Positions 2-51,399 of a stretch of 64,000 nt of DNA are shown here, piece by piece. Within the stretch, counting starts at the first letter, position 1. Every line of letters begins with the position of its first letter. The notes beneath the pieces are model-generated. The model did not search any database, was not told the origin of the DNA, and worked only from the letters and a program-made list of their open reading frames with translations. The position numbers and the translations under genes were made by a program. The DNA comes from Pedococcus dokdonensis. GTDB lineage: Bacteria; Actinomycetota; Actinomycetes; Actinomycetales; Dermatophilaceae. Location: contig NZ_LT629711.1 in NCBI RefSeq assembly GCF_900104525.1, forward strand, positions 3,878,065 through 3,942,064, read 5' to 3'.

Positions 2-1732
2 CCGGACGTGGGGGGTGGCTTCGGTGGCAAGCTCCAGCACACCCCCGAAGAGGTCCTCACGGTCCTCGCTGCGCGACACGTGGGCAAGCCGTGCAAGTAC
101 ACCGAGACCCGCAGCGAGTCGCTCCTGTCGGCTCACCACGGGCGCGACCAGTGGCAGAAGCTCACCCTGACCGCGACCAAGGACGGCACGGTCACCGGGC
201 TCAAGGTCGACCTGCTGGCCGACATGGGGGCCTACCTCGGGCTGGTCACGTCCGGCATACCGGTGCTCGGCGCGTTCATGTTCAACGCGATCTACAAGTT
301 CCCCGCCTACCAGTTCAACTGCACCAACCTGTTCACCAACAAGACGTGGACCGACGCCTACCGCGGCGCCGGGCGGCCGGAGGCGACCTACGCCATCGAG
401 CGGCTGATGGACGAGCTGGCCGTCGAGGTCGGGGTCGACCCCCTGGAGATCAGGGAGAAGAACTGGATCAAGCACGAGGAGTTCCCGTTCACCACGGTGG
501 CCGGGATGACCTACGACTCGGGCAACTACGAGGCCGCGACCGCGCGGGCGCGAGAGCTCTTCGACTACGACGGGCTGCGGCGCGAGCAGCAGGAGCGTCG
601 CGACCGCAAGGACCCGGTCCAGCTGGGCATCGGTATCTCGACATTCACCGAGATGTGCGGTCTCGCGCCGTCCCGGGTCCTCGGAGCCCTGCGCTACGCC
701 GCAGGCGGGTGGGAGCACGCGACGGTGCGGATGCTGCCCACCGGCAAGGTCGAGGTGGTCACCGGCACCTCGCCCCACGGCCAGGGCCACGAGACGGTCT
801 GGAGCCAGATCATCGCCGACAAGCTCGGGGTCCCGTTCGAGGACGTCGAGGTGCTGCACGGCGACACCCAGATCGCCAGCCGCGGACTCGACACCTACGG
901 CTCGCGGTCGCTGGTCGTCGGTGGGCAGGCCCTCGTGATGGCGGCCGACCGGGTGATCGAGAAGGCCAAGCCCCATGCCGCGCACCTGCTCGAGGTGTCG
1001 GTCGAGGACATCGAGTTCTCCGGTGGCCAGTTCAAGGTCAAGGGCACGGACAACGGCAAGGCGATGGCCGAGGTGGTCTGGGCGGCCTTCGCGTCGCACG
1101 ACCTGGCCGAGGGGCTCGAGCCCACGCTGGACGCCGACGCCACCTACGACCCGGTGGACTTCTCCTTCCCCCACGGCACCCACCTGTGCGCCATGGAGGT
1201 CGACACCGAGACCGGTCAGGTGACGATGCGCAAGTACGTGTGCGTCGACGACATCGGCAACATCATGAACCCGCTCATCGTCGAGGGGCAGGTGCATGGC
1301 GGGCTCGTGCAGGGCATCGCCCAGGCACTCTGGGAGGAGGCGGTCTACGACGACCAGGGCACCCTGGTGTCGGGTTCGTTCGTCGACTACACGCTGCCCA
1401 CGGCCGCAGACACGATCTCGTTCGTCACCGACAACACCGTCTCCCCGTCGACGACGAACGACCTCGGGGCCAAGGGGGTCGGCGAGGCGGGCTGCATCGC
1501 CTCCACCCCGGCTGTCGTCAACGCCGTCGTCGACGCGCTGCGGCCGATGGGGATCAACGACATCCGGATGCCGTGCACCCCGGAGCGGGTCTGGCGGGCG
1601 ATCCAGTCCGCCGGCGCGAACCAATCCGACGCCACCACCGGTGACGCCCAGCCGCACTTCGACGCGGCGGCCCCCAACCAGGACGAGCCGGGCGGTCCAG
1701 CCGGCACCGCGACGAACGGAGCAGACCAGTGA
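2..1732 (+). CDS. Molybdenum hydroxylase large subunit, form II CoxL-like (5' partial)
   Basis: Molybdopterin-binding catalytic subunit of a xanthine dehydrogenase/CO dehydrogenase-family enzyme, cytoplasmic, acting with an FAD subunit and an iron-sulfur subunit. The frame is open to the window edge and starts inside the conserved PDVGGGFGGK motif, so the N-terminal part is missing. AYRGAGR at 356-376 is the form II signature; true CO dehydrogenases (form I) carry AYRCSFR. HGQGHET and, near the C-terminus, GVGEAG with the catalytic Glu (1484-1486) are present. The stop overlaps the FAD-subunit start. Substrate is unknown; oxidation of CO is not supported by the active-site loop. Confidence 0.9.
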   Translation, partial: PDVGGGFGGKLQHTPEEVLTVLAARHVGKPCKYTETRSESLLSAHHGRDQWQKLTLTATKDGTVTGLKVDLLADMGAYLGLVTSGIPVLGAFMFNAIYKFPAYQFNCTNLFTNKTWTDAYRGAGRPEATYAIERLMDELAVEVGVDPLEIREKNWIKHEEFPFTTVAGMTYDSGNYEAATARARELFDYDGLRREQQERRDRKDPVQLGIGISTFTEMCGLAPSRVLGALRYAAGGWEHATVRMLPTGKVEVVTGTSPHGQGHETVWSQIIADKLGVPFEDVEVLHGDTQIASRGLDTYGSRSLVVGGQALVMAADRVIEKAKPHAAHLLEVSVEDIEFSGGQFKVKGTDNGKAMAEVVWAAFASHDLAEGLEPTLDADATYDPVDFSFPHGTHLCAMEVDTETGQVTMRKYVCVDDIGNIMNPLIVEGQVHGGLVQGIAQALWEEAVYDDQGTLVSGSFVDYTLPTAADTISFVTDNTVSPSTTNDLGAKGVGEAGCIASTPAVVNAVVDALRPMGINDIRMPCTPERVWRAIQSAGANQSDATTGDAQPHFDAAAPNQDEPGGPAGTATNGADQ

Positions 1733-2583
1733 TCCCCGCAGCGTTCGACTACGTCGCGCCCACCTCTGTCGCCGACGCGCTCGCCGCCATGGCGGAGGCC
1801 GGTGACGAGGGCAAGGTGCTGGCCGGCGGGCAGAGCCTGCTGCCGATCCTGCGGATGCGGCTCAACGCCCCGGAGAAGGTCATCGACCTCGGCCGGATCG
1901 AGGAGCTCAAGGGAGTGTCCGAGGACGGCGACCACGTGGTGATCGGTGCGATGACCACGTATGCCGACGTGCTGGCGAGCGACCTCGTGCGTCAGCACGC
2001 GGGGGTGCTCACCGACGCGATCGCCGAGGTGGCCGACCCGCAGATCCGGCACCGTGGCACGGTCGGTGGCGCCCTGGTCCACGCCGACCCCGCCGGTGAC
2101 GTCGGGGCGCCGGCCCTCGCGCTCGACACCGAGTTCGTCATCACCGGCAGCGGTGGTGAGCGACGGGTCGCCGCCGCCGACTTCTTCCAGGACCTCTTCG
2201 AGACGGCCGTGGGAGAGGGTGAGCTGCTCACCGCCATCCGGATCCCGAAGCACACCGGATGGGGGCACCGCTACGAGAAGTTCGTCAGGGTGTCCCACCA
2301 GTGGTCGATCGTCGCGGTCGCGGCGACGGTCCGGGTCGACGGCGGCAGCATCGCCGAGGCGCGGATCGGCCTGACCAACATGGGCTCGACCCCGCTGCGG
2401 GCCACGAGCGTCGAGCAGGCTCTCGTGGGTGCGTCGGCGACGGACGAAGCAGTCCGCGCGGCGTGTGCCGCCGCGGCCGACGGCACCAACCCGCCGTCGG
2501 ACCTCAACGGTGACGCCGACTACCGCAAGCACCTGGCGACGGTGCTGACCCGGCGAGCCGTCCTGGCCGCGGCAGGCGGGTGA
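1729..2583 (+). CDS. Molybdenum hydroxylase FAD-binding subunit, CoxM-like
   Basis: FAD-binding middle subunit that passes electrons from the iron-sulfur subunit onward. The 284 residues match the usual family size. The two flavin-binding motifs are visible: AGGQSLLPILRMRL near residue 30 and TVGGALVHADPAGD near residue 105. The GTG start overlaps the TGA of the large subunit, implying translational coupling. Order here is L-M-G; the small iron-sulfur subunit gene is not in the window and would be expected upstream. Confidence 0.92.
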   Translation: MIPAAFDYVAPTSVADALAAMAEAGDEGKVLAGGQSLLPILRMRLNAPEKVIDLGRIEELKGVSEDGDHVVIGAMTTYADVLASDLVRQHAGVLTDAIAEVADPQIRHRGTVGGALVHADPAGDVGAPALALDTEFVITGSGGERRVAAADFFQDLFETAVGEGELLTAIRIPKHTGWGHRYEKFVRVSHQWSIVAVAATVRVDGGSIAEARIGLTNMGSTPLRATSVEQALVGASATDEAVRAACAAAADGTNPPSDLNGDADYRKHLATVLTRRAVLAAAGG

Positions 2584-2587
2584 GCCC

Positions 2588-3427
2588 GTGGAGCTGAACC
2601 ACTCCTTCACCGTGCCCGCGGACGTCGCGACCACCTGGGCGACCTTCATGGACCTGCCCCTGGTCGGCGGCTGCTTCCCCGGCGCCACCGTCACGGAGGT
2701 GACGGAGGAGGGCTTCGCGGGCACGGTGAAGGTCAAGCTCGGCCCGATCGCGCTGGTCTACTCGGGCACCGGGTCCTTCCTCGAGCGCGACGACACTGCG
2801 CACCGGGCCGTGATCGAGGCCAAGGGCAAGGACAAGCGGGGCAACGGCACGGCCGGGGCCACCGTCACGATCCAGCTCTCCGAGGCGGGTGCCGGCTCGA
2901 CCCGCGCCGACGTGCAGACCGACCTGGCGGTGACCGGCAAGCCGGCGCAGTTCGGCCGGGGCGTCATGCAGGACGTCTCCGACAAGCTGCTCGGCCAGTT
3001 CATCGCGTGCATCGAGGGCAAGATCGGCGACGCCACCCCGGTCGCAGGCCCCGCGCGGCCCGAGGGGGCCGAGGGCCCGGTCTCCCAGGCGCCGGGCGGC
3101 GACCCGGCCGGGAAAGCGGGCGATGGGCCGGTTTCCGAGGCTGCCCCGGCCGACGTCGTCCCGCCCGGGGACGCTGCTCCGACGCCGGCTCCCGCCGTCG
3201 CCGAGGCGCCGCCCGCCCCGGCCGCACCGCCTCCCGCCCCGGCCGCACCGCCTCCCGCCGCAGCGGCGCCACCACCTCGGTCGGTCCCGGCGGCGAAGCA
3301 GGACGACGCCCTCGACCTGGGGTCCACCGTCCTCCCGGTCCTGCTGAAGTCCTACGGCAAGCAGGTCGCGATCGGCGTCGTGGTCGTCGTCGCGGTGATC
3401 GTGATCTGGCGGGCGATGAGCGGCTGA
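2588..3427 (+). CDS. CoxG-like SRPBCC protein with C-terminal membrane anchor
   Basis: CoxG family protein, 279 residues. The first ~150 residues form the SRPBCC/CoxG fold (starts MELNHSFTVPADVATTWATF). An Ala/Pro-rich linker follows (about 160-235), then a single hydrophobic segment near the C-terminus (VAIGVVVVVAVIVIW) that should anchor it in the membrane. Known CoxG recruits the CO dehydrogenase complex to the membrane; a similar docking role here is inferred. GTG start four bases after the coxM-like stop, so part of the same operon. Confidence 0.85.
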   Translation: MELNHSFTVPADVATTWATFMDLPLVGGCFPGATVTEVTEEGFAGTVKVKLGPIALVYSGTGSFLERDDTAHRAVIEAKGKDKRGNGTAGATVTIQLSEAGAGSTRADVQTDLAVTGKPAQFGRGVMQDVSDKLLGQFIACIEGKIGDATPVAGPARPEGAEGPVSQAPGGDPAGKAGDGPVSEAAPADVVPPGDAAPTPAPAVAEAPPAPAAPPPAPAAPPPAAAAPPPRSVPAAKQDDALDLGSTVLPVLLKSYGKQVAIGVVVVVAVIVIWRAMSG

Positions 3428-3470
3428 GCCGGCCACCCGGCATACCGGCGCCACCCGTCCCGCCACCCCT

Positions 3471-3540
3471 CGCAAAACGGCGGTTGCGCGCACTTCCGCC
3501 CAGCAACAGCTGGGCGGAAGGCGACGCAACCGCCGTTTTG
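3471..3540 (+). terminator. Long two-part hairpin after the cox-like operon
   Basis: Outer arms CAAAACGGCGGTTGCG (3473-3488) and CGCAACCGCCGTTTTG (3525-3540) are perfectly complementary. They enclose a second stem CTTCCGCCCAGC/GCTGGGCGGAAG (3493-3504 and 3509-3520) with an AACA loop. It follows coxG and precedes aroQ, so it probably ends the cox-like transcript. A CGGCATAC octamer lies just upstream at 3438. Confidence 0.6.
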
Positions 3541-3724
3541 TCGTCAGCACCGGGCGCCGACCCGCCCAAACGGATGAGGACCGGGTCATCCGGTCATGTG
3601 GACCTGCGGTGACCTACCCTGAAAGTGAACGGCGGCGTGGAAGGGTGACCGGCTAGGCGCCACCCTGAGCGCCATCCCACCGCCGCGGCCCCGCGGCACC
3701 CTGCCAGCACAGGAGCGCGCCACG

Positions 3725-4177: not shown

Positions 4178-4214
4178 GCCACCGGGGACTGCGTCCCCTG
4201 CAAGACTGCGGGGC

Positions 4215-5402: not shown

Positions 5403-5551
5403 GACCGTGTGACACGGTGCCAGGCGAGCACTCCGGAATGCCTTCGCGCGGGCCCGGCCGCACGGCATACCCTCGATTTTCGGTGCGGGCTCCCGACCGT
5501 GTAGTCTCACCGTCGCACTTCCGCGCGGGTCCGCCCGCGAGGTCCGTGCCC

Positions 5552-5624: not shown

Positions 5625-5656
5625 CTGGGAAGTTCGTCGCAAGGCGCACGCCCCAT

Positions 5657-6028: not shown

Positions 6029-6044
6029 CCTGACGCGCCTCGAC

Positions 6045-6078: not shown

Positions 6079-6112
6079 TCGTCCCTGCGGGGGTGCGCAA
6101 TAGGGTGGGGCC

Positions 6113-8353: not shown

Positions 8354-9388
8354 TCAGTCGGTGGGCGGGGTCGCGAGCCAGGTGTCGATGTCGGCGAGCG
8401 CCGCTGCACGGACGTCGGCGGGGGCGCACGAGGCGGTGACCGAACCACGCGCGAGGGTGGCCAGCTCGTCGTCGGTGAACCCGAGGGCCTCTCGCGCCAG
8501 CTGGTACTGGTCGGCCAGCCGCGACCCGAACAGCAGCGGGTCGTCCGCCCCCAGGGCCACCGGTATGCCGTGCTCGACGATGGCGCGCAACGGCACCTCC
8601 GCGGTGCTTGCGTACACCCCCAGCGCGACGTTGCTGCGCGGGCACACCTCGAGCGCTACCCCCGACTCCGCCACCTGCTCCAGCACCCGGGGGTCCTCGA
8701 CGCTGCGCACGCCGTGGCCGATCCGGTCCGGCCGGATGGCTTCGAGGGTCGACTCCACGGCAGTGGGTCCGAGCAGCTCGCCGGCGTGCGGCACGAGGGC
8801 GAGCCCGGCCCGGCGGGCGATGCCGAAGGCCGGGGCGAACTCGGCGGTGACACCGCGACGTTCGTCGTTGCTCAACCCGAACCCGACCACGGTGCCGGGG
8901 TCGGAGCCGGCATGCTGCGCGGCGAGCCGGGCCAGCGTGCGCGCGTCGAGCGGGTGGCGGATCCGGCTGGCGGCCACGATGACGGCGACCTGCGTGGTCC
9001 CCTCCCGGGAGACGACGGCGGCCTCGTCGAGGACGATCTCGAGCGCCGGTGTGATGCCCCCGACGAACGGCGCGTAGGAGGTCGGGTCGACCTGGATCTC
9101 GAGCCAGCGCGACCCCTCGCTGGCGTCGTCGAGCGCGGCCTCGCGGACGATCCGGCGCAGGTCCGCCTCGTCGCGCACGCAGGCCCGTGCGGCGTCGTAC
9201 AGCCGCTGGAACCGGAACCAGCCGCGTTCGTCGCGGGCGCTCAACCGGGGCGGGTAGCCGGTGGTGAGCGCGTCGGGCAGCCGCAGGTGGTGCTTCTCGG
9301 CCAGCTCGCGCACGGTCTCGACGCGCATCGAGCCGGTGAAGTGCAGGTGCAGGTGCGCCTTGGGCAGGGTGGTCACCGGGCGCGGCAT
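8354..9388 (-). CDS. Adenosine deaminase family protein
   Basis: Metal-dependent purine deaminase of the amidohydrolase superfamily, 344 residues, likely hydrolysing adenosine or deoxyadenosine to inosine (or adenine to hypoxanthine). Visible motifs: metal-binding HLHLHF with KAHLH start, VPHAGE (general-acid Glu and His), DRIGHGVRS, EVCPRSNVAL and ALGADDPLLFGS with the metal-binding Asp pair. Start at 9388 gives MPRPVTTLPKAHLHLHF, right for the family. Choice between adenosine and adenine deaminase cannot be made from motifs alone. Confidence 0.85.
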   Translation of the reverse strand: MPRPVTTLPKAHLHLHFTGSMRVETVRELAEKHHLRLPDALTTGYPPRLSARDERGWFRFQRLYDAARACVRDEADLRRIVREAALDDASEGSRWLEIQVDPTSYAPFVGGITPALEIVLDEAAVVSREGTTQVAVIVAASRIRHPLDARTLARLAAQHAGSDPGTVVGFGLSNDERRGVTAEFAPAFGIARRAGLALVPHAGELLGPTAVESTLEAIRPDRIGHGVRSVEDPRVLEQVAESGVALEVCPRSNVALGVYASTAEVPLRAIVEHGIPVALGADDPLLFGSRLADQYQLAREALGFTDDELATLARGSVTASCAPADVRAAALADIDTWLATPPTD

Positions 9389-9438: not shown

Positions 9439-10446
9439 TCAGCGCACGACCGACGCGGACCAGGCCTGGGGAACGAGCAGGCGGGGTCGGCCGACGCCGT
9501 CCGCGGCGACGGCATACAGGTCGGTCTCGCCACCCCGCGCCCCGGTGAGCGGCAGCCCGTAGAGCACCGTGTCGGCGTCGAGCCACTGCACCTGGTCGTC
9601 GACGCTGCGGGTCTCGGTGAGCAGCACCTCGCGGCCCGCCCCGAGGTCGAGCACGGCGATCCGCCAGCCGCCCGACGGCTGCATCCGCTTGTAGGCCACT
9701 CGGGTGCCGTCGGGCGACAGCGAGGGGCACTCGGCGCCCGACCGCACGGTGGTGACGGAGCGGCGCGCGAGCGACCCCTTCGCGAGCCAGGGTGTCCCGT
9801 CGAAGGCGACGGTGAGGTAGAAGGTGTCGTCGTCGACGAAGGTCACGCCCCAGTAGTTGCGGTCGACCGGGGTGATCCGGCGGCCCTGGTGGGTCAGCGC
9901 GAAGTCCTCGAGGTGCACCGCAGTGCCCTTGGTGAGGTCGTGGAGGTAGGTGCGCGTCGCGAAGCCCGCGCTCAGGTAGGAGTCCCCGGTGACGAAGGCG
10001 GTGGTGGCCGCGAGCCTTCCGTCGGGCGACAGCCGCGCACGACTGGGTATGCCGGGCAGGTTGCGTCGGTAGGTGACCCGGCCCGAGCGGTCCCACGCCG
10101 TGACGGAGCTGCCGAGCACGACTCCGGGCCTCGAGCGCAGGCAGAGGGTGGTGTCGCCGCGCTGGTCGACGCGTTCGCAGGCATCTGTGGTGACGGCACG
10201 GGGGCCGTCGGGGTCGGCGAGGGTCGACATCGCCACCTTGCCGAAGTCGGGGCCGAGAGCCGTGGACCGGTAGACGAGGTGCGGGACGCCCTGCACCTGG
10301 GCGAGGGAGGCGCTGGGGACGCTGGGTGCACCGGCCGGCGGCGCGGGCGGTGGCGCCTGGGCGCGCAGCACCGCGTAGGCGAAGACGCCGGCGACGGCGA
10401 GCACGACGACTGCGACGAAGATGGCCACCCGGGCGCGCTGGTTCAT
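9439..10446 (-). CDS. Membrane-anchored TolB-like beta-propeller protein
   Basis: 335-residue protein of unknown function. Residues 1-30 contain one hydrophobic segment (RVAIFVAVVVLAVAGVFAYAVL), then a Pro/Ala-rich linker (about 33-50). The rest has propeller-type repeats, with LSPDGRLAATT and SLSPDGTRVAYKR as the clearest blades. It is probably an extracytoplasmic domain tethered to the membrane. Its ATG overlaps the stop of the MFS gene (ATGA), so the two are cotranscribed and may work together. No catalytic motif is seen. Confidence 0.7.
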   Translation of the reverse strand: MNQRARVAIFVAVVVLAVAGVFAYAVLRAQAPPPAPPAGAPSVPSASLAQVQGVPHLVYRSTALGPDFGKVAMSTLADPDGPRAVTTDACERVDQRGDTTLCLRSRPGVVLGSSVTAWDRSGRVTYRRNLPGIPSRARLSPDGRLAATTAFVTGDSYLSAGFATRTYLHDLTKGTAVHLEDFALTHQGRRITPVDRNYWGVTFVDDDTFYLTVAFDGTPWLAKGSLARRSVTTVRSGAECPSLSPDGTRVAYKRMQPSGGWRIAVLDLGAGREVLLTETRSVDDQVQWLDADTVLYGLPLTGARGGETDLYAVAADGVGRPRLLVPQAWSASVVR

Positions 10447-13766: not shown

Positions 13767-13821
13767 CGTCCCAGAGCCCCGGTATGCCGCGCAGTCGCCG
13801 TCCGCAGCCCGGTCACCCCCG

Positions 13822-19299: not shown

Positions 19300-19390
19300 C
19301 GACAGGGCCAGGAGCCGACCGAGCGTCAGCGAGGAAGGCCCGCAGCCCCGAGGAAGAGCGACAATCAAGTACCTCTCTGACGAGAGCCGC

Positions 19391-19418
19391 CCGGTATGCC
19401 GCCCACGCGGCATACCGG
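19391..19418. promoter_or_regulatory. Perfect hairpin with paired CGGCATAC octamers, rplK-rplA spacer
   Basis: Arms CCGGTATGCCGC (19391-19402) and GCGGCATACCGG (19407-19418) around CCAC. The stem contains two inverted copies of the window's over-represented octamer. It lies in the long rplK-rplA spacer, where it could attenuate transcription or affect L1 regulation; there is no strong T-run. Confidence 0.6.
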
Positions 19419-19487
19419 GGCACGTGGCAGGACCGCGCTGGTCCGATTGACCACACCTCCACCGAAACACTCAGCACAGGAGCAGAA

Positions 19488-22052: not shown

Positions 22053-22136
22053 CTCCGCCGGGGCAACCCGCGCTGAGCCCGCTCGCACACCAAACCGCCA
22101 CTCACGGCATACGAAGAAATAGAAAGGACGCCCATC

Positions 22137-25310: not shown

Positions 25311-26624
25311 ATGGCTGAGTCCTCCACCGGAACCATGTCGCGCCTGGGCAACCGGGCCTACGGCGTGGGCTTCATCCTCGTCGTGGCCCTTCTCGTGGGG
25401 CTGTCGATCGCCTCGTTCCAGAAGCGGTTCACCTCCGTGGTCATGGTCAACCTGCTGACCGACCGGATCGGGTCGCAGCTGCAGACCTCGTCCGACGTGA
25501 AGCTCCGCGGCCTGATCGTCGGTGAGGTGCGCAGCATCGAGACGACCGGTGACGGCGCCCGGCTGCAGCTCGCGCTCAAGCCCGAGATGGTCGACCTGAT
25601 CCCCGCCGACGTCTCCGCGCGACTGCTGCCGAAGACCCTGTTCGGAGAGCGGTTCGTCGACCTGGTGACCCCGGCGGGTGCTCCCGCCAAGCACATCGAG
25701 GCGGGCGACACGATCGGGCAGGACCGCACGACGGTCGCGATCGAGCTGGAGAAGGTCTTCGACGACCTGCTCCCGCTGCTGCGCACCGTCCAGCCCGAGA
25801 AGCTGTCCGCCACCCTCAACGCGCTCGCCAGCGCCCTTGAGGGGCGCGGCACGCGGCTGGGCGAGAACCTCGTCCTCGTCGACAGCTACTTCAAGGAGAT
25901 CAACCCCAAGCTTCCGACGATCAAGGCCGACATCAGCGGTCTGGCCGACCTCGCGAGCACGTATGCCGTGGCGGCGCCAGACCTCGTCCGCGCCGCCAAG
26001 GCGCTGGTCACCACCTCCACCACCATCGTGGAGAAGAAGGACGCCCTGTCGGGCTTCCTCGTCGGCACCGCGGGCTTCGCCAACACCACCGCCGACTTCC
26101 TGGACGCCAACGGCGACCGCATCATCCGCGTCGGAGCCGTGCAGCGCCCGACCGTCGAGGTGCTGGCGAAGTACTCGCCGCAGTACCCGTGCATCGCGAC
26201 CGCGATGGTCAACTGGATCCCGCGGATCGACGAGGCCTGGCGCGACAAGAAGTTCCACATCACGGTGGAGATCACCAAGCAGCGGTCCGGCTACAAGCCG
26301 GGCGAGGAGCCGCGGTGGGGCGAGCGTCGCGGTCCGAGCTGCCAGGGCCTGCCCGGGCGTTACGGCACCCAGGAGAACCCCTGGACCGGCAACCACTTCG
26401 ACGACGGCGCGAACCACTCCGGCTCGAGCGCGGGCAGCGCCCTGCCGTCGATGTTCTCGGGCCCCTCGGGCCAGTCCATCGTCGGGGCCGACTCCGGCCT
26501 GGCGGGCACCGAAGGTGAGCAGGACGTCGTCGCGGCGCTGCTGTCCTCGAGCGGGCAGCGGTCGGCGATCACGACGCTCCTGGCCGGTCCGATGCTGCGT
26601 GGAACGGTGGTGAACCAACAATGA
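25311..26624 (+). CDS. mceA: Mce family protein MceA
   Basis: First of six MCE substrate-binding subunits, 437 residues. One N-terminal transmembrane helix (AYGVGFILVVALLVGLSIASF), then the MCE/MlaD domain with SSDVKLRGLIVGEVRSIE and LPKTLFGERFVDLV, a helical stretch (about 150-270), and a Gly/Ser-rich C-terminal tail. Mce subunits assemble into a hexameric tunnel carrying lipids or sterols across the envelope. Stop overlaps the mceB start (ATGA). Confidence 0.9.
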   Translation: MAESSTGTMSRLGNRAYGVGFILVVALLVGLSIASFQKRFTSVVMVNLLTDRIGSQLQTSSDVKLRGLIVGEVRSIETTGDGARLQLALKPEMVDLIPADVSARLLPKTLFGERFVDLVTPAGAPAKHIEAGDTIGQDRTTVAIELEKVFDDLLPLLRTVQPEKLSATLNALASALEGRGTRLGENLVLVDSYFKEINPKLPTIKADISGLADLASTYAVAAPDLVRAAKALVTTSTTIVEKKDALSGFLVGTAGFANTTADFLDANGDRIIRVGAVQRPTVEVLAKYSPQYPCIATAMVNWIPRIDEAWRDKKFHITVEITKQRSGYKPGEEPRWGERRGPSCQGLPGRYGTQENPWTGNHFDDGANHSGSSAGSALPSMFSGPSGQSIVGADSGLAGTEGEQDVVAALLSSSGQRSAITTLLAGPMLRGTVVNQQ

Positions 26625-29873: not shown

Positions 29874-31090
29874 GGAACCCGATGAGCCACCAGCCGACCA
29901 CCACCCGGACCAGCGGGACCACCACCGGTATGGCGCGTGGCCGGCGGCTGCTCTCCGGCGCGGTCGTGGCCGCCACCGTCCTCGGTGTGTCCGGGTGCCA
30001 GGGCGCCTTCGACCTGCCGCTCCCGGGCGGTGCCGCCAACCGCGGCGACATCTTCCGGGTCACCGCGGAGTTCGCCGACGTGCTCGACCTGGTGCCGCAG
30101 TCGTCGGTCAAGGTCGACCAGGTCACCGTCGGCTCGGTCGAGAAGATCGAGCTCAACGGCTGGACCGCCCGGGTGACCCTGCGCCTCCCGAAGGACGTGG
30201 ACCTGCCGGACAACGCCGTCGCCGAGCTCAAGCAGACCTCCCTGCTGGGTGAGAAGTACGTCCAGCTGTCGCCGCCTACGACGGGCGCGCCCGAGGGGCA
30301 CCTGGGGGAGGGGGACAACATCCCGTTGGCGCGCACCGGCCGCAACCCCGAGGTCGAGGAGGTCCTCAGCGCGATGTCGCTGCTGCTCAACGGCGGCGGG
30401 GTGGCCCAGCTCAAGGTGATCGAGACCGAGCTCAACAACGCCATGCGCGGCAACCAGGCGCAGATCAAGGACGTCATCAAGCAGCTCGACACGTTCGTCG
30501 GGGGGCTCGACCAGCAGAAGTCGGAGATCGTCCGCGCGATCGACAACATCGACAAGCTCTCGGCCAGGCTGGCCGCCCAGAAGGACGACATCGCCGCCGC
30601 GCTCGAAGCCCTGCCCAAGGGCCTGAAGGTGCTCGCCGACCAGCGCCAGCAGCTGGTGCAGATGCTCCAGGCGCTGAGCCGTCTCGGCGCCGTCGGCACC
30701 CAGGTGATCCAGCAGAGCAAGGCCGACACGGCCGCCAACCTCAAGGCGCTGGCGCCGATCCTGGCGCAGCTGACCAAGGCCGGCGACGACCTGCCGAAGT
30801 CGCTCCAGCTGCTGCTGACCTACCCGTTCTCCGACGCGACGACCGGGGCGATGCGGGGCGACTTCACCAACATGTCGGCCGACCTCGACCTCAACCTCAG
30901 CAACCTCGCGGGCAACCTGGGCATCCCGACCACCCCGCCCGGTGGCGGTGGCCTCCCGACCACCCCGCCCAGCCTCCCGACCCTGCCCATCCCCAGCGTG
31001 ACCATCCCGCCGCTGCCGGGCGCTCCCACCCCGACCGGCACCCAGCCGCCGTGCACCATCCCGCTCCTCTGCCCCGGAGGTGGGTCGTGA
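29870..31090 (+). CDS. mceE: Mce family lipoprotein MceE
   Basis: 406-residue MCE subunit and the lipoprotein of the set, like mycobacterial MceE/LprK. Signal peptide with lipobox GVSGC near residue 44, then MCE domain (VTAEFADVLDLVPQSSVKVD, LKQTSLLGEKYVQL), helical region, and a Pro/Thr-rich C-terminus (about 350-406). ATG at 29870 overlaps the mceD stop; a nearer ATG at 29882 is a possible alternative start. Confidence 0.9.
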   Translation: MRNPMSHQPTTTRTSGTTTGMARGRRLLSGAVVAATVLGVSGCQGAFDLPLPGGAANRGDIFRVTAEFADVLDLVPQSSVKVDQVTVGSVEKIELNGWTARVTLRLPKDVDLPDNAVAELKQTSLLGEKYVQLSPPTTGAPEGHLGEGDNIPLARTGRNPEVEEVLSAMSLLLNGGGVAQLKVIETELNNAMRGNQAQIKDVIKQLDTFVGGLDQQKSEIVRAIDNIDKLSARLAAQKDDIAAALEALPKGLKVLADQRQQLVQMLQALSRLGAVGTQVIQQSKADTAANLKALAPILAQLTKAGDDLPKSLQLLLTYPFSDATTGAMRGDFTNMSADLDLNLSNLAGNLGIPTTPPGGGGLPTTPPSLPTLPIPSVTIPPLPGAPTPTGTQPPCTIPLLCPGGGS

Positions 31091-32358
31091 TCCGCCGGTC
31101 CGTGCAGGTGCAGCTGTTCGCCTTCCTGCTCCTCACGTTGTTCACCGTCTCGATCCTGTCGGCGCGCTACGTCGGCCTCTACGACCGGGTGGCCGGCGGG
31201 CAGTACCACGTGACGGCCGACTTCGAGCAGTCCGGCGGCATCTTCGTCGGCTCCGAGGTCTCCTACCGCGGCGTCACCGTCGGCACGGTCGACGACCTGC
31301 GGCTGTCCAAGGACGGCGTGGTCGTCGACGCGAAGATCAAGCGCGGCGTGCGGATCCCCAAGGACACCAAGGTCGTCGTCGAGAACCGCTCCGCCGTCGG
31401 CGAGCAGTACCTCGACTTCCAGCCGCGCAGCGACCGGGGCCCCGTGCTCGCCGACGGCGACGCGATCCCACGCAAGGACACGGCATACCCCCTACGGGTC
31501 GACACGCTCCTCCTGGACCTCGACCAGACCGTCAACTCGGTCGACAAGCAGGACCTGTCGACCGTGGTCGACGAGCTCGGCAAGGGCTTCGCCGACGGCG
31601 GCGAGGACCTCCAGCGGCTGATCGACAGCGGTGACCGGCTCACCCGGTCGGCGACCGAGGCGCTGCCGGAGACGAAGAAGCTGATCGACGACGGCCGGAT
31701 CGTGCTCGACACGCAGCGCGACTCCTCCGGCGACATCAAGGTGTTCGCGAAGAACTTCGCCGACCTGTCCGAGACCCTCAAGGGCTCGGACGGCGACCTG
31801 CGGCTCATCCTCGACCGGGGCGCCGTCGCCTCCAAGGAGCTGGACACCCTCGTCAAGGACAACCGGGGCAACCTCGCCGCGCTGTTGGCCAACCTGATCA
31901 CCATCGGCCAGGTCACCACCGCTCGCGTGGACGGCATCCAGCAGCTGCTCGTCACCTACCCCGACGTGGTCGCCGGTGGCTACACCGTGGTGCCCGGCGA
32001 CGGGTCGGCGCACTTCGGGCTGGCGCTGGCCCAGGACCCCCCGGTCTGCACGCAGGGCTACGGCGGCACGAAGAAGAAGAGCACCCGCGACCTCAGCAAC
32101 ACCAAGGCCAACACCTCGGCCAGGTGCACCGCCCCCCGCGGCTCGGGCACCAGCGTCCGCGGCGCGCAGAACGCCCCCGGGCCCTCGTCGAGCACGAACT
32201 CCACCGTTCCGTTCGCTTTCGGCGACCAACCCGTATCCCCGGGCATGGCTGCGTCGTTGGGCATGTCGACGCCACAGGTTTCGGTTCCTGTTCCTCCCGC
32301 CGGGGGTGAGAGCAGCGAGGCCTCGTGGTTGTGGATCATGAAGGAGGCTGCTCGATGA
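31087..32358 (+). CDS. mceF: Mce family protein MceF
   Basis: 423-residue MCE subunit closing the six-gene set. N-terminal helix QLFAFLLLTLFTVSILSARY, MCE domain with FEQSGGIFVGSEVSYRGVTV and ENRSAVGEQYLDFQP. GTG at 31087 overlaps the mceE stop; a longer frame upstream lies inside mceE. A CGGCATAC octamer sits within the gene at 31481. Confidence 0.9.
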   Translation: MIRRSVQVQLFAFLLLTLFTVSILSARYVGLYDRVAGGQYHVTADFEQSGGIFVGSEVSYRGVTVGTVDDLRLSKDGVVVDAKIKRGVRIPKDTKVVVENRSAVGEQYLDFQPRSDRGPVLADGDAIPRKDTAYPLRVDTLLLDLDQTVNSVDKQDLSTVVDELGKGFADGGEDLQRLIDSGDRLTRSATEALPETKKLIDDGRIVLDTQRDSSGDIKVFAKNFADLSETLKGSDGDLRLILDRGAVASKELDTLVKDNRGNLAALLANLITIGQVTTARVDGIQQLLVTYPDVVAGGYTVVPGDGSAHFGLALAQDPPVCTQGYGGTKKKSTRDLSNTKANTSARCTAPRGSGTSVRGAQNAPGPSSSTNSTVPFAFGDQPVSPGMAASLGMSTPQVSVPVPPAGGESSEASWLWIMKEAAR

Positions 32359-32885
32359 GCTCGATCACCGCCCCTGCCGGCGCCGTCCGCGCCAGGGCCC
32401 TGACCGTCACCCCACGCCTCGTGTGGGCCGTGGTGGCCGTGGCCCTCGTCGCGAGCCTCGCGCTGGCGGCCACCCGTGGCCGCGACTGGTATGCCGCGCG
32501 GCAGACCGAGGCGGCCAACGCGTCGGCCGTGGCCGCCGCCAGGCAGCTGGCCATCAACTTCGTCACCGTCGACTACGCAAAGGTCGACGCGGACGTGGCC
32601 CGCGTGAAGGCGGGTGCGACGGGCGAGTTCCTCAAGAGCTACTCGGCCTCGACGGCCGACCTGACCAAGGTGCTGGTGGCCAACAAGACCGTCTCGACGG
32701 TCCAACGCACCGAGGCCTCGCTGGTCTCCGGTGACCGCGACTCGGCCGTGGCCCTCGTCGGGGTGGTCGCGCCGACCAGGAACACCGCCGTGCCGAACGG
32801 CGAGACCAAGACCTACCGGATGCGGCTCGACCTGCGCCTGGTGGGCGACGCATGGAAGGTGGAGAACCTTGAGTTCGTCGGTTGA
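32355..32885 (+). CDS. Mce-associated membrane protein 1
   Basis: 176 residues: one N-terminal transmembrane helix (WAVVAVALVASLALAATRG) then a small alpha/beta domain of the Mce-associated (Mas) type, as found after mceF in actinobacteria. Such proteins are thought to stabilise the Mce complex. ATG overlaps the mceF stop. A GTATGCCG octamer at 32499 encodes its Tyr-Ala (TAT GCC). Confidence 0.8.
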   Translation: MSSITAPAGAVRARALTVTPRLVWAVVAVALVASLALAATRGRDWYAARQTEAANASAVAAARQLAINFVTVDYAKVDADVARVKAGATGEFLKSYSASTADLTKVLVANKTVSTVQRTEASLVSGDRDSAVALVGVVAPTRNTAVPNGETKTYRMRLDLRLVGDAWKVENLEFVG

Positions 32886-37486: not shown

Positions 37487-37527
37487 GGTATGCCGCGTGG
37501 TCACCGCCGGTGACCACGCGGCACACC
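37487..37527. promoter_or_regulatory. Strong hairpin between rpoB and rpoC
   Basis: GGTATGCCGCGTGGTCACC (37487-37505) and GGTGACCACGCGGCACACC (37509-37527) pair at 18 of 19 positions around GCC, starting two bases after the rpoB stop. It contains one GTATGCCG octamer. The core GCCGCGTGGTCACC recurs in the hairpin after rpoC. It may partly attenuate or process the rpoBC transcript. Confidence 0.6.
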
Positions 37528-42710: not shown

Positions 42711-42716
42711 CAGCGA

Positions 42717-42757
42717 CCGGTATGCCGCGGGCGCACCTCGCGCCCGCGGCATACCGG
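42717..42757. terminator. Hairpin after rpsG built on paired octamers
   Basis: CCGGTATGCCGCGGGCG (42717-42733) and CGCCCGCGGCATACCGG (42741-42757) form a perfect 17-bp stem with a 7-nt loop. Both arms carry the GTATGCCG/CGGCATAC octamer. It lies 6 bases after the rpsG stop and may terminate or attenuate before fusA. Confidence 0.75.
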
Positions 42758-42832
42758 AGGCGCGTGGTCGATGCTCCGCCACCCACGCACCACCACGAAC
42801 TTTTCGCAACGAGCTGAGACGAGACGATCACA

Positions 42833-46263: not shown

Positions 46264-46300
46264 GCACGGCGATCTGCCTGACGTAGCACCTGCACCACCG

Positions 46301-46331
46301 AAGGACCCCGCGGCATGGCCGCGGGGTCCTT
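46301..46331 (+). terminator. Terminator after tuf
   Basis: AAGGACCCCGCGGC (46301-46314), ATG loop, GCCGCGGGGTCCTT (46318-46331): perfect 14-bp stem, followed by CGTCTT. Confidence 0.88.
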
Positions 46332-46434
46332 CGTCTTGGGTGCAGGTTCTGGCCCGGTATGCCGGGTTCGCCCGGTTCCCGGGTACGGCTGCTGGGGGAG
46401 GTGCGCCGGTCCGGGCGGGACTACGTTCAGGGCC

Positions 46435-48627
46435 ATGGGCTTCGGGGTCGGGAACCGTCGGCTGCGCCGGGTGGCGTTGGGCGCTGCCGTGCTGCTCGTC
46501 GTGCTCGCCGGTCCCGTGGCGTCGGCTCCCGGCGACCCGACCGTGCGGTTCAGCGCCGCCGGTGACTTCTCGGCGGGTGCGAGCGCGACCAGCGTGTTGA
46601 ACCTGATCGGCTCGCTCGACAACGACTTCCACGCCGCCCTCGGCGACATGTCCTACGGGACCACCGGCGCGGAGGACGCCTGGTGCAACCTGGTCAAGGC
46701 CGGGGTGGGCGAGGGCTACCCGTTCGAGCTGGTCTCGGGCAACCACGAGAGCAACGGCCAGAACGGCAACATCAACGACTTCTCGGCCTGCCTGCCCAAC
46801 CAGCTCCCGGGACTCAAGGGCACCTACGGCCGGCAGTACTACGTCGACGTGCCCGCCAACGCGCCGCTGGTGCGCTACGTCGCGGTGAGCTCGGGCATCC
46901 CGTTCACGACCGGCACCAAGTCCTATGCGTCGGGCACGCCCGAGTACGCGTGGACGTCGGCAGCCATCGACGGGGCTCGAGCGGCCGGCATACCGTGGGT
47001 CGTCGTCGGCAACCACACGCCCTGCGTGAGCCTCGGTGAGTACGCCTGCGAGATGGGCTCCGACCTCGCGAACCTGTTGCTGGCCAAGAAGGTCGACGTG
47101 GTCCTGACCGGCCACGAGCACATCTACCAGCGCACCAAGCAGCTGACCACCCGCACCGGGTGCGCCACGCTCGTGCCCGGCACCTTCAACGCGACGTGCG
47201 TCGTCGACTCCGACAACGACCTCGCGGCCGGCGCGGGCACCGTCTTCGCCACGGTGGGCACGGGCGGGATCAACCAGCGCAACGTCAACACCACGGACCC
47301 CGAGGCGGGCTACTTCGCCGCCTATGCGGGTCTGAACGTCAACTCCACCTTCGGTGTCCTGGACTTCTCGCTGACCTCCGACGTGCTCACCGCGACCTTC
47401 CGCCGCGCGTCAGGGGGCACCTTCTCCGACGCCTTCACGATCACCAAGGGCGTGGCCCCGCCGAACCAGCCGCCCACGGCGGCCTTCACGCCGACCTGCA
47501 CGCAGCTGGCCTGCTCGGTCGACGCCTCGGCCAGCAGCGACGCCGACGGCACCATCGCGTCCTACGCGTGGCAGTTCGGTGACGGCACGACCGGCACCGG
47601 GGTCAACGCGAGCCGCACGTACGCCGCGGCGGGCACCTACACGATCACGCTCACCGTCACCGACGACGACGGCGCCACCGACACCACCACGCGGTCGGTC
47701 ACGGTCGCGCCCACGCCCAACCAGCTGCCCACGGCCAGCTTCACCACCAGCTGCACCGACCTGGCCTGCTCCTTCAACGGCACCGGCTCCAGCGACCCCG
47801 ACGGCACCATCGCCTCCTACGCCTGGCAGTGGGGTGACGGCACCGCCGACGGCACGGGCGCCACCGCCAACCACACGTATGCCGCGGCAGGCACCTACAC
47901 CGCGCGGCTCACGGTCACCGACAACGCCGGGGCCACGGGGACCACGACCAAGGACGTGACGGTCACGGCGCCGCCTCCGGTGACGGTGCTGGCCGCCGAC
48001 GCCTACGGGCGGACGCTCGCCACCGGCTGGGGCAGCGCCGACACCGGTGGCGCCTGGACCACCAACGCCTCGTCGAGCGCGCTGTCGGTCACCGGCGGGG
48101 CGGGACAGGTGCGGCTGAACGCCGGCTCCGGGCCGTGGCTCGCCCTGGCGGGGGTCTCCTCGTCCTCGACCGACCTGGTGACCACGATCTTCCTGGACAA
48201 GGTGCCGACCGGCAGCGGCGCCTACGTCTCCCTCAACGGCCGGCGGGTGCCCGGGGTCGGCGACTACCGCGCCAAGGTGCACTACACCTCCAACGGCGGG
48301 GTGTGGCTCTCCCTGCAGCGCGCCACCGCCGCGAACGCCGAGACGGTGCTGGCGGCCGAGACGCAGGTCCCGGGCATCACGATGGCAGCCGGTGAGAAGC
48401 TGCTCGCCCGCGTGCAGGTCACCGGCACCTCGCCCACGACGGTGCGCGCGAGGGTGTGGAAGGCCGGCACCACCGAGCCGACCACCTGGCAGAAGACCGC
48501 GACGGACTCCACGTCCGGGTTCCAGGCAGCCGGCGGAGTGGGTTTCTACCTCTACCTGTCCGGCGCGGCGACCAACGCCCCGATCGCGTTCAACTTCGAC
48601 GACCTCAAGGCCGTCCCGGGGCCCTGA
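46435..48627 (+). CDS. Secreted metallophosphoesterase with two PKD domains
   Basis: 730 residues, exported. Signal peptide 1-30 (RRVALGAAVLLVVLAGPVASA). Calcineurin-like phosphoesterase domain about 38-340 with metal motifs AAGDFS (Asp44), LGDMSYG (Asp71), SGNHES (about 101-106), a second GNH, and TGHEHIYQ (226-229). Two PKD domains (about 347-424 and 433-510) with SYAWQFGDG and SYAWQWGDG. The last ~210 residues form a beta-rich domain of the type beginning DAYGRTLATGWGSAD, often found in actinobacterial surface proteins. Substrate unknown. Its 3' end overlaps the convergent GNAT gene by 23 bases. Confidence 0.85.
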   Translation: MGFGVGNRRLRRVALGAAVLLVVLAGPVASAPGDPTVRFSAAGDFSAGASATSVLNLIGSLDNDFHAALGDMSYGTTGAEDAWCNLVKAGVGEGYPFELVSGNHESNGQNGNINDFSACLPNQLPGLKGTYGRQYYVDVPANAPLVRYVAVSSGIPFTTGTKSYASGTPEYAWTSAAIDGARAAGIPWVVVGNHTPCVSLGEYACEMGSDLANLLLAKKVDVVLTGHEHIYQRTKQLTTRTGCATLVPGTFNATCVVDSDNDLAAGAGTVFATVGTGGINQRNVNTTDPEAGYFAAYAGLNVNSTFGVLDFSLTSDVLTATFRRASGGTFSDAFTITKGVAPPNQPPTAAFTPTCTQLACSVDASASSDADGTIASYAWQFGDGTTGTGVNASRTYAAAGTYTITLTVTDDDGATDTTTRSVTVAPTPNQLPTASFTTSCTDLACSFNGTGSSDPDGTIASYAWQWGDGTADGTGATANHTYAAAGTYTARLTVTDNAGATGTTTKDVTVTAPPPVTVLAADAYGRTLATGWGSADTGGAWTTNASSSALSVTGGAGQVRLNAGSGPWLALAGVSSSSTDLVTTIFLDKVPTGSGAYVSLNGRRVPGVGDYRAKVHYTSNGGVWLSLQRATAANAETVLAAETQVPGITMAAGEKLLARVQVTGTSPTTVRARVWKAGTTEPTTWQKTATDSTSGFQAAGGVGFYLYLSGAATNAPIAFNFDDLKAVPGP

Positions 48628-49180
48628 CCTGGCTCGCGCGGCCGCGGTCGTACTCCGCCGCGGTCAGCTCGTAGACCACCTCGCCGAGCTCGGCGCCGGG
48701 CAGGGGGTCGGCCCACTCGCGCACCTCGGTGCGCGCGTGGCGCAGGCCGATCCGCTCTAGCACCGCACGGGAGCGCGCGTTGACAGCCATCGTCTCGGCC
48801 CAGATCCGCTGCAGCCGCACCGTCTCGAAACCGTGTTGCACGAGGCGGGCGGCGCCCTCGCTGGCCAGGCCGCGACCCCAGGCCCGCTGGCGCAGCCGGT
48901 AGCCGAGCTCCGCCTCGCCGTCGGCGGTCGGCGTCAGGCACAGCCAGCCGACGAACTCGTCGCCCTCGTAGGCCGACCAGTAACCCAGCCCCAGGGCGTC
49001 GTGCGCGGGGTCGGTGCGTTGCGGCAGCCACACCTCGATCGCCTCCTCGGCAGGCGTGGCGCGACCGGTGAGGTGCGCCATCACGGCGGGGTCGCCGTCG
49101 AGCTCGACGAGCAGGTCGCTCTCGTCGGCCGACAGCGGGCGCAGCGCCAGCCGGTCGGTGGTCAGACCCGGCCGGGCCAT
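48605..49180 (-). CDS. GNAT family N-acetyltransferase (RimJ/RimL-like)
   Basis: 191-residue acetyltransferase. Begins LTTDRLALRPLSADESDLLV, the usual start of RimJ/RimL-like members. The acetyl-CoA loop appears as RQRAWGRGLASEGAARLV, with WAETMAVNARSRAVLERIGL in the C-terminal half. Substrate unknown. Start overlaps the stop of the upstream FMN oxidase gene (ATGA), so they are cotranscribed. Confidence 0.85.
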   Translation of the reverse strand: MARPGLTTDRLALRPLSADESDLLVELDGDPAVMAHLTGRATPAEEAIEVWLPQRTDPAHDALGLGYWSAYEGDEFVGWLCLTPTADGEAELGYRLRQRAWGRGLASEGAARLVQHGFETVRLQRIWAETMAVNARSRAVLERIGLRHARTEVREWADPLPGAELGEVVYELTAAEYDRGRASQVRAPGRP

Positions 49181-50496
49181 CACGGTGCCGTCGCCAGCAG
49201 CTCCGGACCGAGCTCGGCCACCGAGCCGATGCCGGACAGGCCCATCGTGAGGTCGAGCTCGGCGACGATGTTGGCGAGCACGTCGCGCACGCCGTCGCGG
49301 CCGGCCAGCGCCAGCCCGTAGACGTACGGGCGCCCGATCGCGACGGCGTCGGCCCCGAGCGCCAGCGCCTTGACCACGTCGCTGCCGGTCCGGACCCCGC
49401 TGTCGAGCACGACCGGGAGGTCGGGTCCCACGGCAGACCGGACCGCCGGCAGGGCGTCGAGCGAGGCGATCGCGCCATCGACCTGACGCCCTCCGTGGTT
49501 GCTGACCACGATGCCGCTCGCTCCGATCTCGACCGCCCGGGCGGCGTCGTCGGGGTGGAGCACGCCCTTGACGAGGAACGGCAACGAGGTGCGGTCGCGC
49601 AGGGTGGCCAACCGGTCCCAGGTGAGGCCGGGGTTGGAGTAGATGTCGAGGAACGTCTCGACGGCGGCCCGGGGCACGGGGGAGCGCAGGTTCGTGCGCA
49701 GGTCGCCGGGGTGCTCCCGGCTGATCGACAGGAGTGACCGCAGCGCGCCGAGGGTCACCTTCACGTCGTCGGACCCGCCGTTCCCGGCCGCCTTCGCCGC
49801 CACCCGCTCGGCGACGATCTCCTGGAAGCGGGGATCGGAGGTGTACTGCGCGATCCCGATGCCCTGCGAGAACGGCAGCGATCCGAGGTTGAGGTCCTGC
49901 GGTCGCCAGCCCAGCATCGTCGTGTCGAGCGTGACCACGACGGCCTCGGCCCCGCTGGCCTCGGCCCGCGCGAGCAGGCTGTCGACGAGCGGCTCGTCGG
50001 TCGACCAGTAGAGCTGGAACCACCGCGGCCCCGACGCCATCGCGGCGGCGACGTCCTCCATCGGGGAGCAGCCCTGGTTGCTGAGGATGTAGGGCAGGCC
50101 CAGCTCGGCGGCGGCTGCCCCGATCGCGGTGTCGCTGTCGCGTCGCACGAGGCCGGCCGCGCCCACCGGGGCGAGCAGCACCGGTGCCGGCAGCCGCCGG
50201 CCGAGCAGCTCGACGGACAGGTCCCGGCTGACCCGGCCGGGCAGCATACGAGGCACGATGCGGTGCCGCTCGAAGGCGACCCGGTTGGCGCGGGCAGTCG
50301 TGCCCTCGCCGGCCGCGCCGGCGACGTACGCCCAGGCCCGCGGCGACATCTCGGCCTGCGCGCGGCGCTCCAGCTCGGCGAAGTCGGTGGGCACGGTGGG
50401 TCGCGACCCGAGCACGCCGGCGCGGTACACGAGCGACTGACGGGTGCGGCCGGGACCTGCGTGAGCCGGTCCGGGCGCCTGCGGTTCCTCCTGCAT
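49180..50496 (-). CDS. FMN-dependent alpha-hydroxy-acid oxidase, lactate 2-monooxygenase-like
   Basis: 438-residue (S)-2-hydroxy-acid oxidising flavoenzyme. Features: YVAGAAGEGTT near the N-terminus, PVLLAPVGAAGLVRRDSDTA, WFQLYWSTD, LDTTMLGWRPQDL, FLVKGVLHPDDAARAV with the FMN lysine, active-site SNHGGRQVDGAIASLDALP, and DSGVRTGSDVVKALALGADA. Insertion length and WRPQDL favour the lactate 2-monooxygenase branch; this is a family-level inference. ATGA overlap with the GNAT gene. Confidence 0.88.
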   Translation of the reverse strand: MQEEPQAPGPAHAGPGRTRQSLVYRAGVLGSRPTVPTDFAELERRAQAEMSPRAWAYVAGAAGEGTTARANRVAFERHRIVPRMLPGRVSRDLSVELLGRRLPAPVLLAPVGAAGLVRRDSDTAIGAAAAELGLPYILSNQGCSPMEDVAAAMASGPRWFQLYWSTDEPLVDSLLARAEASGAEAVVVTLDTTMLGWRPQDLNLGSLPFSQGIGIAQYTSDPRFQEIVAERVAAKAAGNGGSDDVKVTLGALRSLLSISREHPGDLRTNLRSPVPRAAVETFLDIYSNPGLTWDRLATLRDRTSLPFLVKGVLHPDDAARAVEIGASGIVVSNHGGRQVDGAIASLDALPAVRSAVGPDLPVVLDSGVRTGSDVVKALALGADAVAIGRPYVYGLALAGRDGVRDVLANIVAELDLTMGLSGIGSVAELGPELLATAP

Positions 50497-50676
50497 GGCC
50501 CGATCCTGCCAGCCCGGCGGCCACGCGCGGCTGTGGACGTCCCGCTGGAATGACAGCCTGGTGACAGGTTCGCCACGGGTGCCTCCAAGCGGGGGGACGC
50601 AGCCTCGAGGGAGCAGGGACGCACCGCAGCGTCCCGTGACCGAGAGACTGTGTCTCCGAAAGGAAGTGCGCCCACG

Positions 50677-51255
50677 ATGCCCACCGTCAGCAAGACCCTG
50701 AAGATCGCCGCAGCCGGAGGCGTGGCCGCCGTCGTCGCGGGCCTCGGCGCGAGCGCGGCGATGGCCGACAGCACGCCGAGCCCGAGCGGGACGACCACGA
50801 CGGCACCCTCCCAGGAGGGGCCGGGACGAGCCGGCCCGGGCGGCGGACCCGGCGGCCGGCACGGCGGACCCGGTGGCCTCGACGCCGCCGCGCTCGCCAA
50901 GCAGCTCGGCCTGACCGAGGCCAAGGTCACCGCGGCGCTGGAGAAGGTGCGGGCGACCGACCAGCCGCCCACACCGCCGGCCGAGGGGACCAGGCCCACC
51001 CCGCCCACGGAAGCCCAGCGCCAGGCCCGCGAGAAGGCCCACGTCGCCGCGCTGGCCAAGGCCCTCGGCGTCGGCGAGGCCAAGGTGCAGGCCGCTCTCG
51101 ACGGGGTCCGGGCCCAGCGCGAGGCCGGCCGTCGGACGGACCTGTCGACCCGGCTCGACGCCGCGGTCAAGGCCGGGAAGCTGTCCGCCGCCGACCAGGC
51201 ATCGGTGCTCAAGGCCTTCGACGCAGGTGTGCTCGGGGGTGGGCCCCGCCCCTGA
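50677..51255 (+). CDS. Small secreted protein, Gly/Ala/Pro-rich
   Basis: 192 residues, unknown function. Signal peptide about 1-31 ([22 protein letters not shown]), then a Ser/Thr/Gly-rich linker. Two similar helical segments follow: [20 protein letters not shown] and [20 protein letters not shown], which look like an internal duplication, and a C-terminal helix. ATG at 50677 with GAAAGGAAG upstream. It diverges from the FMN oxidase gene. Confidence 0.75.
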
Positions 51256-51399
51256 CCCGGGCCCGCCGCACCACCGGCCACGGCCACGCCTCGTTCCCCC
51301 GCGAGCGCGTGGCCGTGGTCCGTTTCGTGCTGCGATGGGGCATTCGGGCGGCCTGCGACGCGCCACCGGCACGGGTATGCCGGGTGCCTGCGGCTCGAT
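51256..51399. other. Spacer before the S10 operon promoter
   Basis: No gene seen. Together with the leader it makes a 440-base gene-free stretch before rpsJ. It contains a GTATGCCG octamer at 51375-51382, about 20 bases before the promoter. Confidence 0.6.

Follow-up and report, generated by a model that had tools for sequence, protein, structure and literature searches.

What does one octamer do that recurs on both strands throughout the end of an actinobacterial chromosome? The stretch analysed here, hereafter the window, is the final 64 kb of the 3,942,064-bp single-contig genome of Pedococcus dokdonensis (NZ_LT629711.1), and the word in question is CGGCATAC, which an earlier note on this DNA had taken for a candidate uptake- or recombination-type signal. 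We found that the genomic behaviour of CGGCATAC is like that of the DNA uptake sequences (DUS) of Neisseriaceae and the uptake signal sequences (USS) of Pasteurellaceae, to which, by analogy, it may belong in function as well. With moderate confidence we read it as a self-DNA signal of the DUS/USS kind that serves natural transformation in part of the Intrasporangiaceae. The sequence tests fit the proposal of the earlier note, yet the strand-specific spacing of the copies fits a Chi-like directional signal as well.

Abundance of the octamer in the window and the genome

In the window, CGGCATAC is the most enriched 8-mer (21 copies versus 0.58 expected under an order-2 Markov model), with nine copies on the + strand and 12 on the - strand; dinucleotide shuffles contained 0.79 copies on average, and 0 of 100 shuffles reached 21. 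The whole 3.94-Mb genome holds 1,927 copies, distributed as 954 and 973 per strand, and 57 copies (29 + 28) of the reversed word. In an 864-kb sample covering 22% of the genome (the window plus 40 stretches of 20 kb taken at even intervals), CGGCATAC is again the most enriched 8-mer, with 404 copies versus 21 expected under an order-3 Markov model (about 20-fold). Copies per 20 kb are close to Poisson (mean 9.6, variance 9.7 in the 40 stretches), and the one-mismatch neighbours of the word occur mostly near expectation, the exceptions being CGGCATCC (84 vs 42), CGGCCTAC (44 vs 30) and CGGCAAAC (10 vs 3). Eight 500-kb bins of the 22% sample displayed no clear difference between replication arms or strands, the origin not being located and no formal test being applied. 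An apparent run of + copies, which could have marked a strand switch along the chromosome, was dismissed as the samples proved balanced. The excess and the strand neutrality claimed in the earlier note are thus both borne out: genome-wide counts lie far above the controls, and the flanks of the copies in P. dokdonensis form no single repeat family that would explain the enrichment.

All 21 copies that had been listed by eye in the window are present, 17 at the exact coordinates, and four (8573, 9520, 32499 and 47878) misplaced by 1 or 10 positions, which begin at 8563, 9510, 32489 and 47877. Nine of the 21 extend to CGGCATACCGG, where the earlier note had estimated about half, and our own gene calls, from which coding status was taken, agree with the count of eleven intergenic copies. 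The copies are as follows (window coordinates):

253..260, + strand: word CGGCATAC, coding, in a gene with a molybdopterin-cofactor-binding domain (2-1732)
1959..1966, - strand: word, coding, gene 1729-2583
3438..3445, + strand: word, intergenic, extends to CGGCATACCGG
5463..5470, + strand: word, intergenic
8563..8570, - strand: word, coding, gene 8354-9388 (- strand)
9510..9517, + strand: word, coding, gene 9439-10446 (- strand)
10047..10054, - strand: word, coding, gene 9439-10446 (- strand)
13782..13789, - strand: word, intergenic
19394..19415 (19394-19401, - strand; 19408-19415, + strand): inverted word pair between the L11 and L1 genes, predicted hairpin of -29.3 kcal/mol
22105..22112, + strand: word, intergenic
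25961..25968, - strand: word, coding, gene 25311-26624
31481..31488, + strand: word, coding, gene 31087-32358
32489..32496, - strand: word, coding, gene 32355-32885
37488..37495, - strand: word, in the gap between the rpoB end (37485) and the rpoC start (37583)
42720..42754 (42720-42727, - strand; 42747-42754, + strand): inverted word pair between the S7 end (42710) and the EF-G start (42833), predicted hairpin of -47.1 kcal/mol
46357..46364, - strand: word, intergenic, 3' of the EF-Tu gene
46986..46993, + strand: word, coding, PKD/metallophosphoesterase gene 46435-48627
47877..47884, - strand: word, coding, PKD/metallophosphoesterase gene 46435-48627
51375..51382, - strand: word, intergenic, the final copy ahead of a word-free ribosomal-protein cluster

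The further observation that ribosomal-protein and RNA-polymerase coding regions are free of the word holds for the Pfam-confirmed rpoB, rpoC, L11, L1, S12 and S7 frames (0 copies), and the Pfam-confirmed EF-G and EF-Tu frames contain no copy either. Zero copies were detected in the ribosomal-protein cluster at positions 51383-64000 (L3, L22, L2 and S3 confirmed), and a run of 12.6 kb without the word has a chance of 0.003 at mean density. The rare codons of CGGCATAC (TAT, GCA) may be shunned by highly expressed genes.

Strand-specific spacing

We determined that copies of CGGCATAC in the same orientation are depleted at short distances, with observed to expected ratios of 0.11 at 100-300 bp, 0.14 at 300-600 bp, 0.33 at 600-1000 bp, 0.41 at 1000-1500 bp and 0.90 at 1500-2000 bp. 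Copies in opposite orientation are spaced as by chance beyond 100 bp in both geometries, the exception being tight inverted pairs within 100 bp, which are in excess. Between 100 and 1000 bp there are 18 same-orientation versus 87 opposite pairs, a number as low being reached in 0 of 5000 label shuffles, and the same-orientation share of CGGCATAC is 0.17 versus 0.38-0.68 (about the 1-99% range) in 187 control octamers of like abundance. The rule is not a transcript effect, because at 100-1500 bp it holds both for pairs within one gene (6 same vs 43 opposite) and for the remainder (30 vs 90).

Same-strand depletion was significant in five of the six genomes tested. It is repeated in relatives (designated by G numbers) G077 (27/61 pairs, 0/2000 shuffles), G164 (38/88, 0/2000), G125 (21/40, 13/2000) and G139 (3/17, 4/2000), and was not significant in G041, where pairs were too few (2/5, 463/2000 shuffles). 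The effect is weaker or shorter in G077, G164 and G125 than in P. dokdonensis, and in G077 and G164 opposite pairs are somewhat in excess at distances under 1 kb. Since only the same orientation is depleted, the two strands seem to be read independently of each other; in the simplest interpretation, a single copy in each 1-1.5 kb of a separately read strand is enough.

Maintenance at the DNA level

CGGCATAC is kept at the DNA level, where it overrides codon usage and is retained at orthologous positions. Inside genes lie 301 of the 404 sampled copies, 253 of them in two frames, in which the word reads Tyr-Ala (antisense) or Ala-Tyr (sense). In the context G-TAY-GCC-G, tyrosine is encoded by TAT 171 times and by TAC 27 times (171/198) versus a TAT usage of 368/4,794 among all Tyr codons. 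In turn, in the context CG-GCN-TAC, GCA occurs 82 times versus 65 for GCC (82/147, counting these two only), and overall GCA accounts for 1,768 of 33,334 Ala codons. Pooled over the nine sets of word-bearing relatives that yielded alignments with copies, exact orthologous retention amounts to 32/76 copies versus 76/429 nearby same-frame octamers; in word-poor relatives it is 0/15 versus 9/91 for the control. As for the copies in leuS, degV and comEC, Phycicoccus sp. Soil802 retains 6/7 and K. koreensis 5/7, and distant relatives retain few or none, with the exception of K. aerolata (3/4 in degV and comEC).

Intergenic excess and hairpins

The density of CGGCATAC is 0.95 per kb between genes versus 0.40 per kb inside them (2.4-fold). 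Inverted pairs (- copy followed by + copy) within 100 bp number 21 versus 4.7 expected in P. dokdonensis; 13 of the 16 such pairs within 40 bp are intergenic, and nine of those 13 lie 9-21 bp past a stop codon. In the window, the S7/EF-G pair lies 9 bp past the S7 gene and the L11/L1 pair 94 bp past the L11 gene. The predicted two-word hairpins at 19386-19424 and 42712-42762 are possible terminators or attenuators within translation operons.

Distribution among relatives and flank dialects

Only some members of a single family, Intrasporangiaceae/Dermatophilaceae, have CGGCATAC in abundance. Among 52 chosen genomes of the family, 24 contain 899-4,724 copies, three are intermediate (189, 293 and 361) and 25 have at most 111, whereas the 272 genomes from other families of the order have at most 177 copies each, with the reversed word reaching up to 185. 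Single word-poor species (G008, G084, G114) occur within word-rich genera. We also counted the word in 80 named loci found via ComEA. Dense loci (5-12 copies per 12.4-12.8 kb) belong to Phycicoccus sp. Soil802, two Knoellia, three Terrabacter, Terracoccus and Nostocoides jenkinsii (Knoellia being assigned by NCBI taxonomy to Intrasporangiaceae, order Micrococcales); five Janibacter, one Humibacillus and one Kytococcus loci have zero copies, and the remaining 65 at most one each. No comparable replacement word was detected in the 20-40 kb scanned in each of the word-poor genomes G052, G155, G183, G013, G001, G084 and G008, where the strongest 10-mers numbered 4 (G155), 5 (G001) and 10 (G084) copies; for G092 and G096 the scan covered less than 4 kb each.

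Comparison with related genera, which the earlier note had advised, thus reveals a family-limited word with flank dialects. In the genus of P. dokdonensis, C(G/A) is preferred before the word and C after it; in the genome itself these preferences are weak and the sharply conserved part is 8 bp. The genus of G041 (1,142 octamer copies genome-wide) possesses the longer conserved motif AGCYCAG-CGGCATAC-GR (stretches L222-L231). While the flanks vary between genera, the core appears constant because the octamer served as the query. The reversed word, CATACGGC, is raised to 453-578 copies in genera g4 and g18 (G005, G009 and G041; 578 in G005, 453 in G041), the excess in G041 being explained by the GGC flank that follows the core.

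Competence genes, comEC and a mobile element

Both ComEA and ComEC, which the earlier note had proposed to look for, are encoded in P. dokdonensis (comEA-comEC), together with an Flp/Tad locus with matches to Flp pilin, RcpC/CpaB, T2SSE and T2SSF. As regards the type IV pilus, also named there, this Flp/Tad locus is what was found, but the type IVa marker PilM_2 was not detected in this genome and is present in only 7 of 186 family genomes; therefore, no ComP-type system is in sight, and a type IVa pilus was rejected as the machinery. T2SSF is encoded in 183/186 genomes and is not discriminating. In the actinobacterium Micrococcus luteus, which possesses comEA and comEC homologues, transformation requires Flp/Tad pili, according to a review (PMC6370729).

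A phosphoribosyltransferase gene near the Flp/Tad locus was read as ComF-like from a generic Pfam match. The two lie about 3 kb apart (L253, 4552-5205 and 7975-14914), and that 16 kb contains three words only.

In four genomes (G126, G135, G067 and G068), comEC carries an interruption of 28-89 kb near residue 262-278; in G166 its parts lie on different contigs. The junction in G135 is near the HLSAVSGSNV motif and is the site of a serine recombinase gene (L263, junction near 1036-1120; L264, 2335-3792, - strand). The gene appears to be a recurrent target of mobile elements, with the same site affected in four species and a contig split in a fifth. The 40-kb element inside the G135 comEC, the one element examined, carries 3 words, whereas 34.5 kb of flanking DNA contain 17 (P 0.0005).

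The data are no more than suggestive of a causal link from comEC loss to loss of the word. Of the 31 genomes of genus g42, 28 were tabulated; the three lowest 11-mer counts belong to G114 (3), G111 (24) and G129 (26), in which comEC is cut, internally deleted or unfound: it ends near a contig end in word-poor G114 (L261), lacks residues ~353-488 in G111 (L260), which still has 5 copies in 20 kb, and the assembly of G129 is a fragmented draft. In word-poor G084 the comEC reading frame is broken near residue 620 (L262). The genomes inspected for comEC integrity were partly picked for weak comEC matches, and the link is weakened by one word-poor genome with unbroken comEC and by five word-rich genomes with interrupted comEC, named below.

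Proposed role and alternative explanations

We infer transformation as the process in which the word acts and, probably, its strand-specific recognition. Word-bearing DNA would be preferred at some step of transformation, be it surface binding, conversion to single strands or import, or the protection of the imported strand and its loading, and biased import followed by recombination of DNA from kin would let the word accumulate. If recognition is strand-specific, a copy on each single strand would be required, with no need for more than one in ~1-1.5 kb. More tentatively still, CGGCATAC would represent the first case, beyond the Gram-negative families with DUS or USS, of self-recognition of the uptake type. 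Its hosts are actinobacteria that encode ComEA/ComEC and, for the most part, pili of the Flp/Tad type, and the word would be read on single strands, each strand having an independent set of signals with a spacing of its own.

Several findings weigh against transformation. ComEC is encoded in 180/186 family genomes, word-poor genera included, and the presence of competence genes is therefore not discriminating. Matches to Flp pilin occur in 15/24 word-rich versus 6/25 background genomes, which leaves 9/24 word-rich genomes without one. The comEC match is unbroken in word-poor G008 and interrupted in word-rich G145, G126, G135, G102 and G166, although some of these interruptions may be assembly errors or recent insertions. 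No candidate for a sequence-specific receptor was found. Moreover, in Haemophilus influenzae the orientation of the USS is reported to have no effect on uptake (PMC1939737), and strand-specific spacing is thus not an expected trait of a DUS.

The alternative that survives best, although we regard it as clearly less probable, is a Chi-like signal, in which the word would be met on one strand and in one orientation by a helicase-nuclease that then passes from degradation to recombination. This enzyme would not be RecBCD; the most plausible candidate is AdnAB of actinobacteria. Close copies on the same strand would then be redundant and opposite copies irrelevant, and the observed spacing is indeed per strand. 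The PDDEXK_1 nuclease domain is encoded in 52/52 genomes, in P. dokdonensis within a 1,077-aa frame of putative AdnAB type, and the codon override and positional retention suit selection for repair as well as they suit drive. Yet, the same domain is present in word-poor relatives, which have no comparable replacement word in 20-40 kb, the 500-kb bins exhibit no clear strand difference, and the long motif of G041 exceeds in length any known Chi. Nor is AdnAB known to respond to Chi; the Chi of Escherichia coli has an orientation bias with replication. RecC was not found in 10 of 11 genomes of the genus, word-rich P. dokdonensis included, so RecBCD is not the reader here, and the RecBCD-Chi pair was rejected. 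Across 164 of the 186 genomes RecC followed no trend with the 11-mer (39/87 genomes with at least 30 copies, 42/77 with fewer), some 11-mer-poor genomes, e.g., G041, being octamer-rich. Transformation is favoured over a Chi-like signal because of the patchy lineages, the dialects, the inverted pairs past genes, the scarcity in the mobile element and the very large excess.

We consider it improbable that CGGCATAC is some other strand-read chromosome signal that has nothing to do with DNA transfer and acts in mismatch or damage repair, in the nucleoid or in segregation. The even genome-wide coverage and the strand-specific spacing would suit such a mark of repair or maintenance, but the word is missing from many genomes of the family (25/52 chosen), including G008, G084 and G114 within word-rich genera, and is therefore not needed for basic maintenance; nor is there a clear replication-arm bias. 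Far less credible is a family of dispersed repeats or terminators, REP-like or MITE-like, in which the octamer is present by chance: hairpin pairs at gene ends and the longer G041 motif would agree with it, but the conserved part is 8 bp with weak flanks, 301/404 copies lie in genes (253 in two frames) and orthologous positions are retained. A transposon origin was discarded, as copies in P. dokdonensis share no long flanks. Least credible of all are a bias in codons or dipeptides, a restriction site, and contamination by adapters. Codon bias is refuted by the rare codons found in the words, and genomes normally avoid restriction sites rather than enrich them. The Illumina P7 adapter, as printed in an abstract, contains the octamer, but an adapter artefact is refuted too, since the adapter-specific 15-mer occurs 0 times in 464 kb.

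Comparison with known systems

With the Chi sites of RecBCD and AddAB, CGGCATAC shares the octamer length and the logic of per-strand spacing expected of a signal read in one orientation. It differs from them in the lack of RecC in P. dokdonensis, in having no clear orientation bias along the chromosome and an excess of ~20-fold (order-3 Markov), and in being lineage-patchy with a motif extended in one genus. The cyanobacterial palindrome HIP1 is likewise a short word hugely over-represented genome-wide, but CGGCATAC is non-palindromic and has polarity. PMC1939737 lists a frequent palindrome of this kind.

DUS and USS are attributed, in the literature consulted, to two Gram-negative families, and among the matches listed in our literature search there was no report of CGGCATAC or of an actinobacterial DUS, from which absence from print does not follow. 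If our reading is correct, CGGCATAC would be a third, independent case of the DUS/USS type, this time in actinobacteria, implying that self-DNA recognition evolves repeatedly, and it would open transformation to study in Intrasporangiaceae (Knoellia, Terrabacter, Phycicoccus, Nostocoides). It is unrelated in sequence to the known uptake words, its hosts are actinobacteria, with P. dokdonensis lacking the type IVa marker PilM_2, and its copies repel one another in the same orientation only. As in Neisseriaceae and Pasteurellaceae, however, the word is non-palindromic, occurs every 1-2 kb, equally on both strands and more densely between genes, forms inverted pairs at gene ends, is limited to a family in which it has dialects, is scarce in a mobile element (one examined here) and is accompanied by competence genes. 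As a quantitative fingerprint, the spacing rule lends itself to calculation for Neisseria and Haemophilus genomes as well, where it would indicate whether the classical uptake words are also strand-read.

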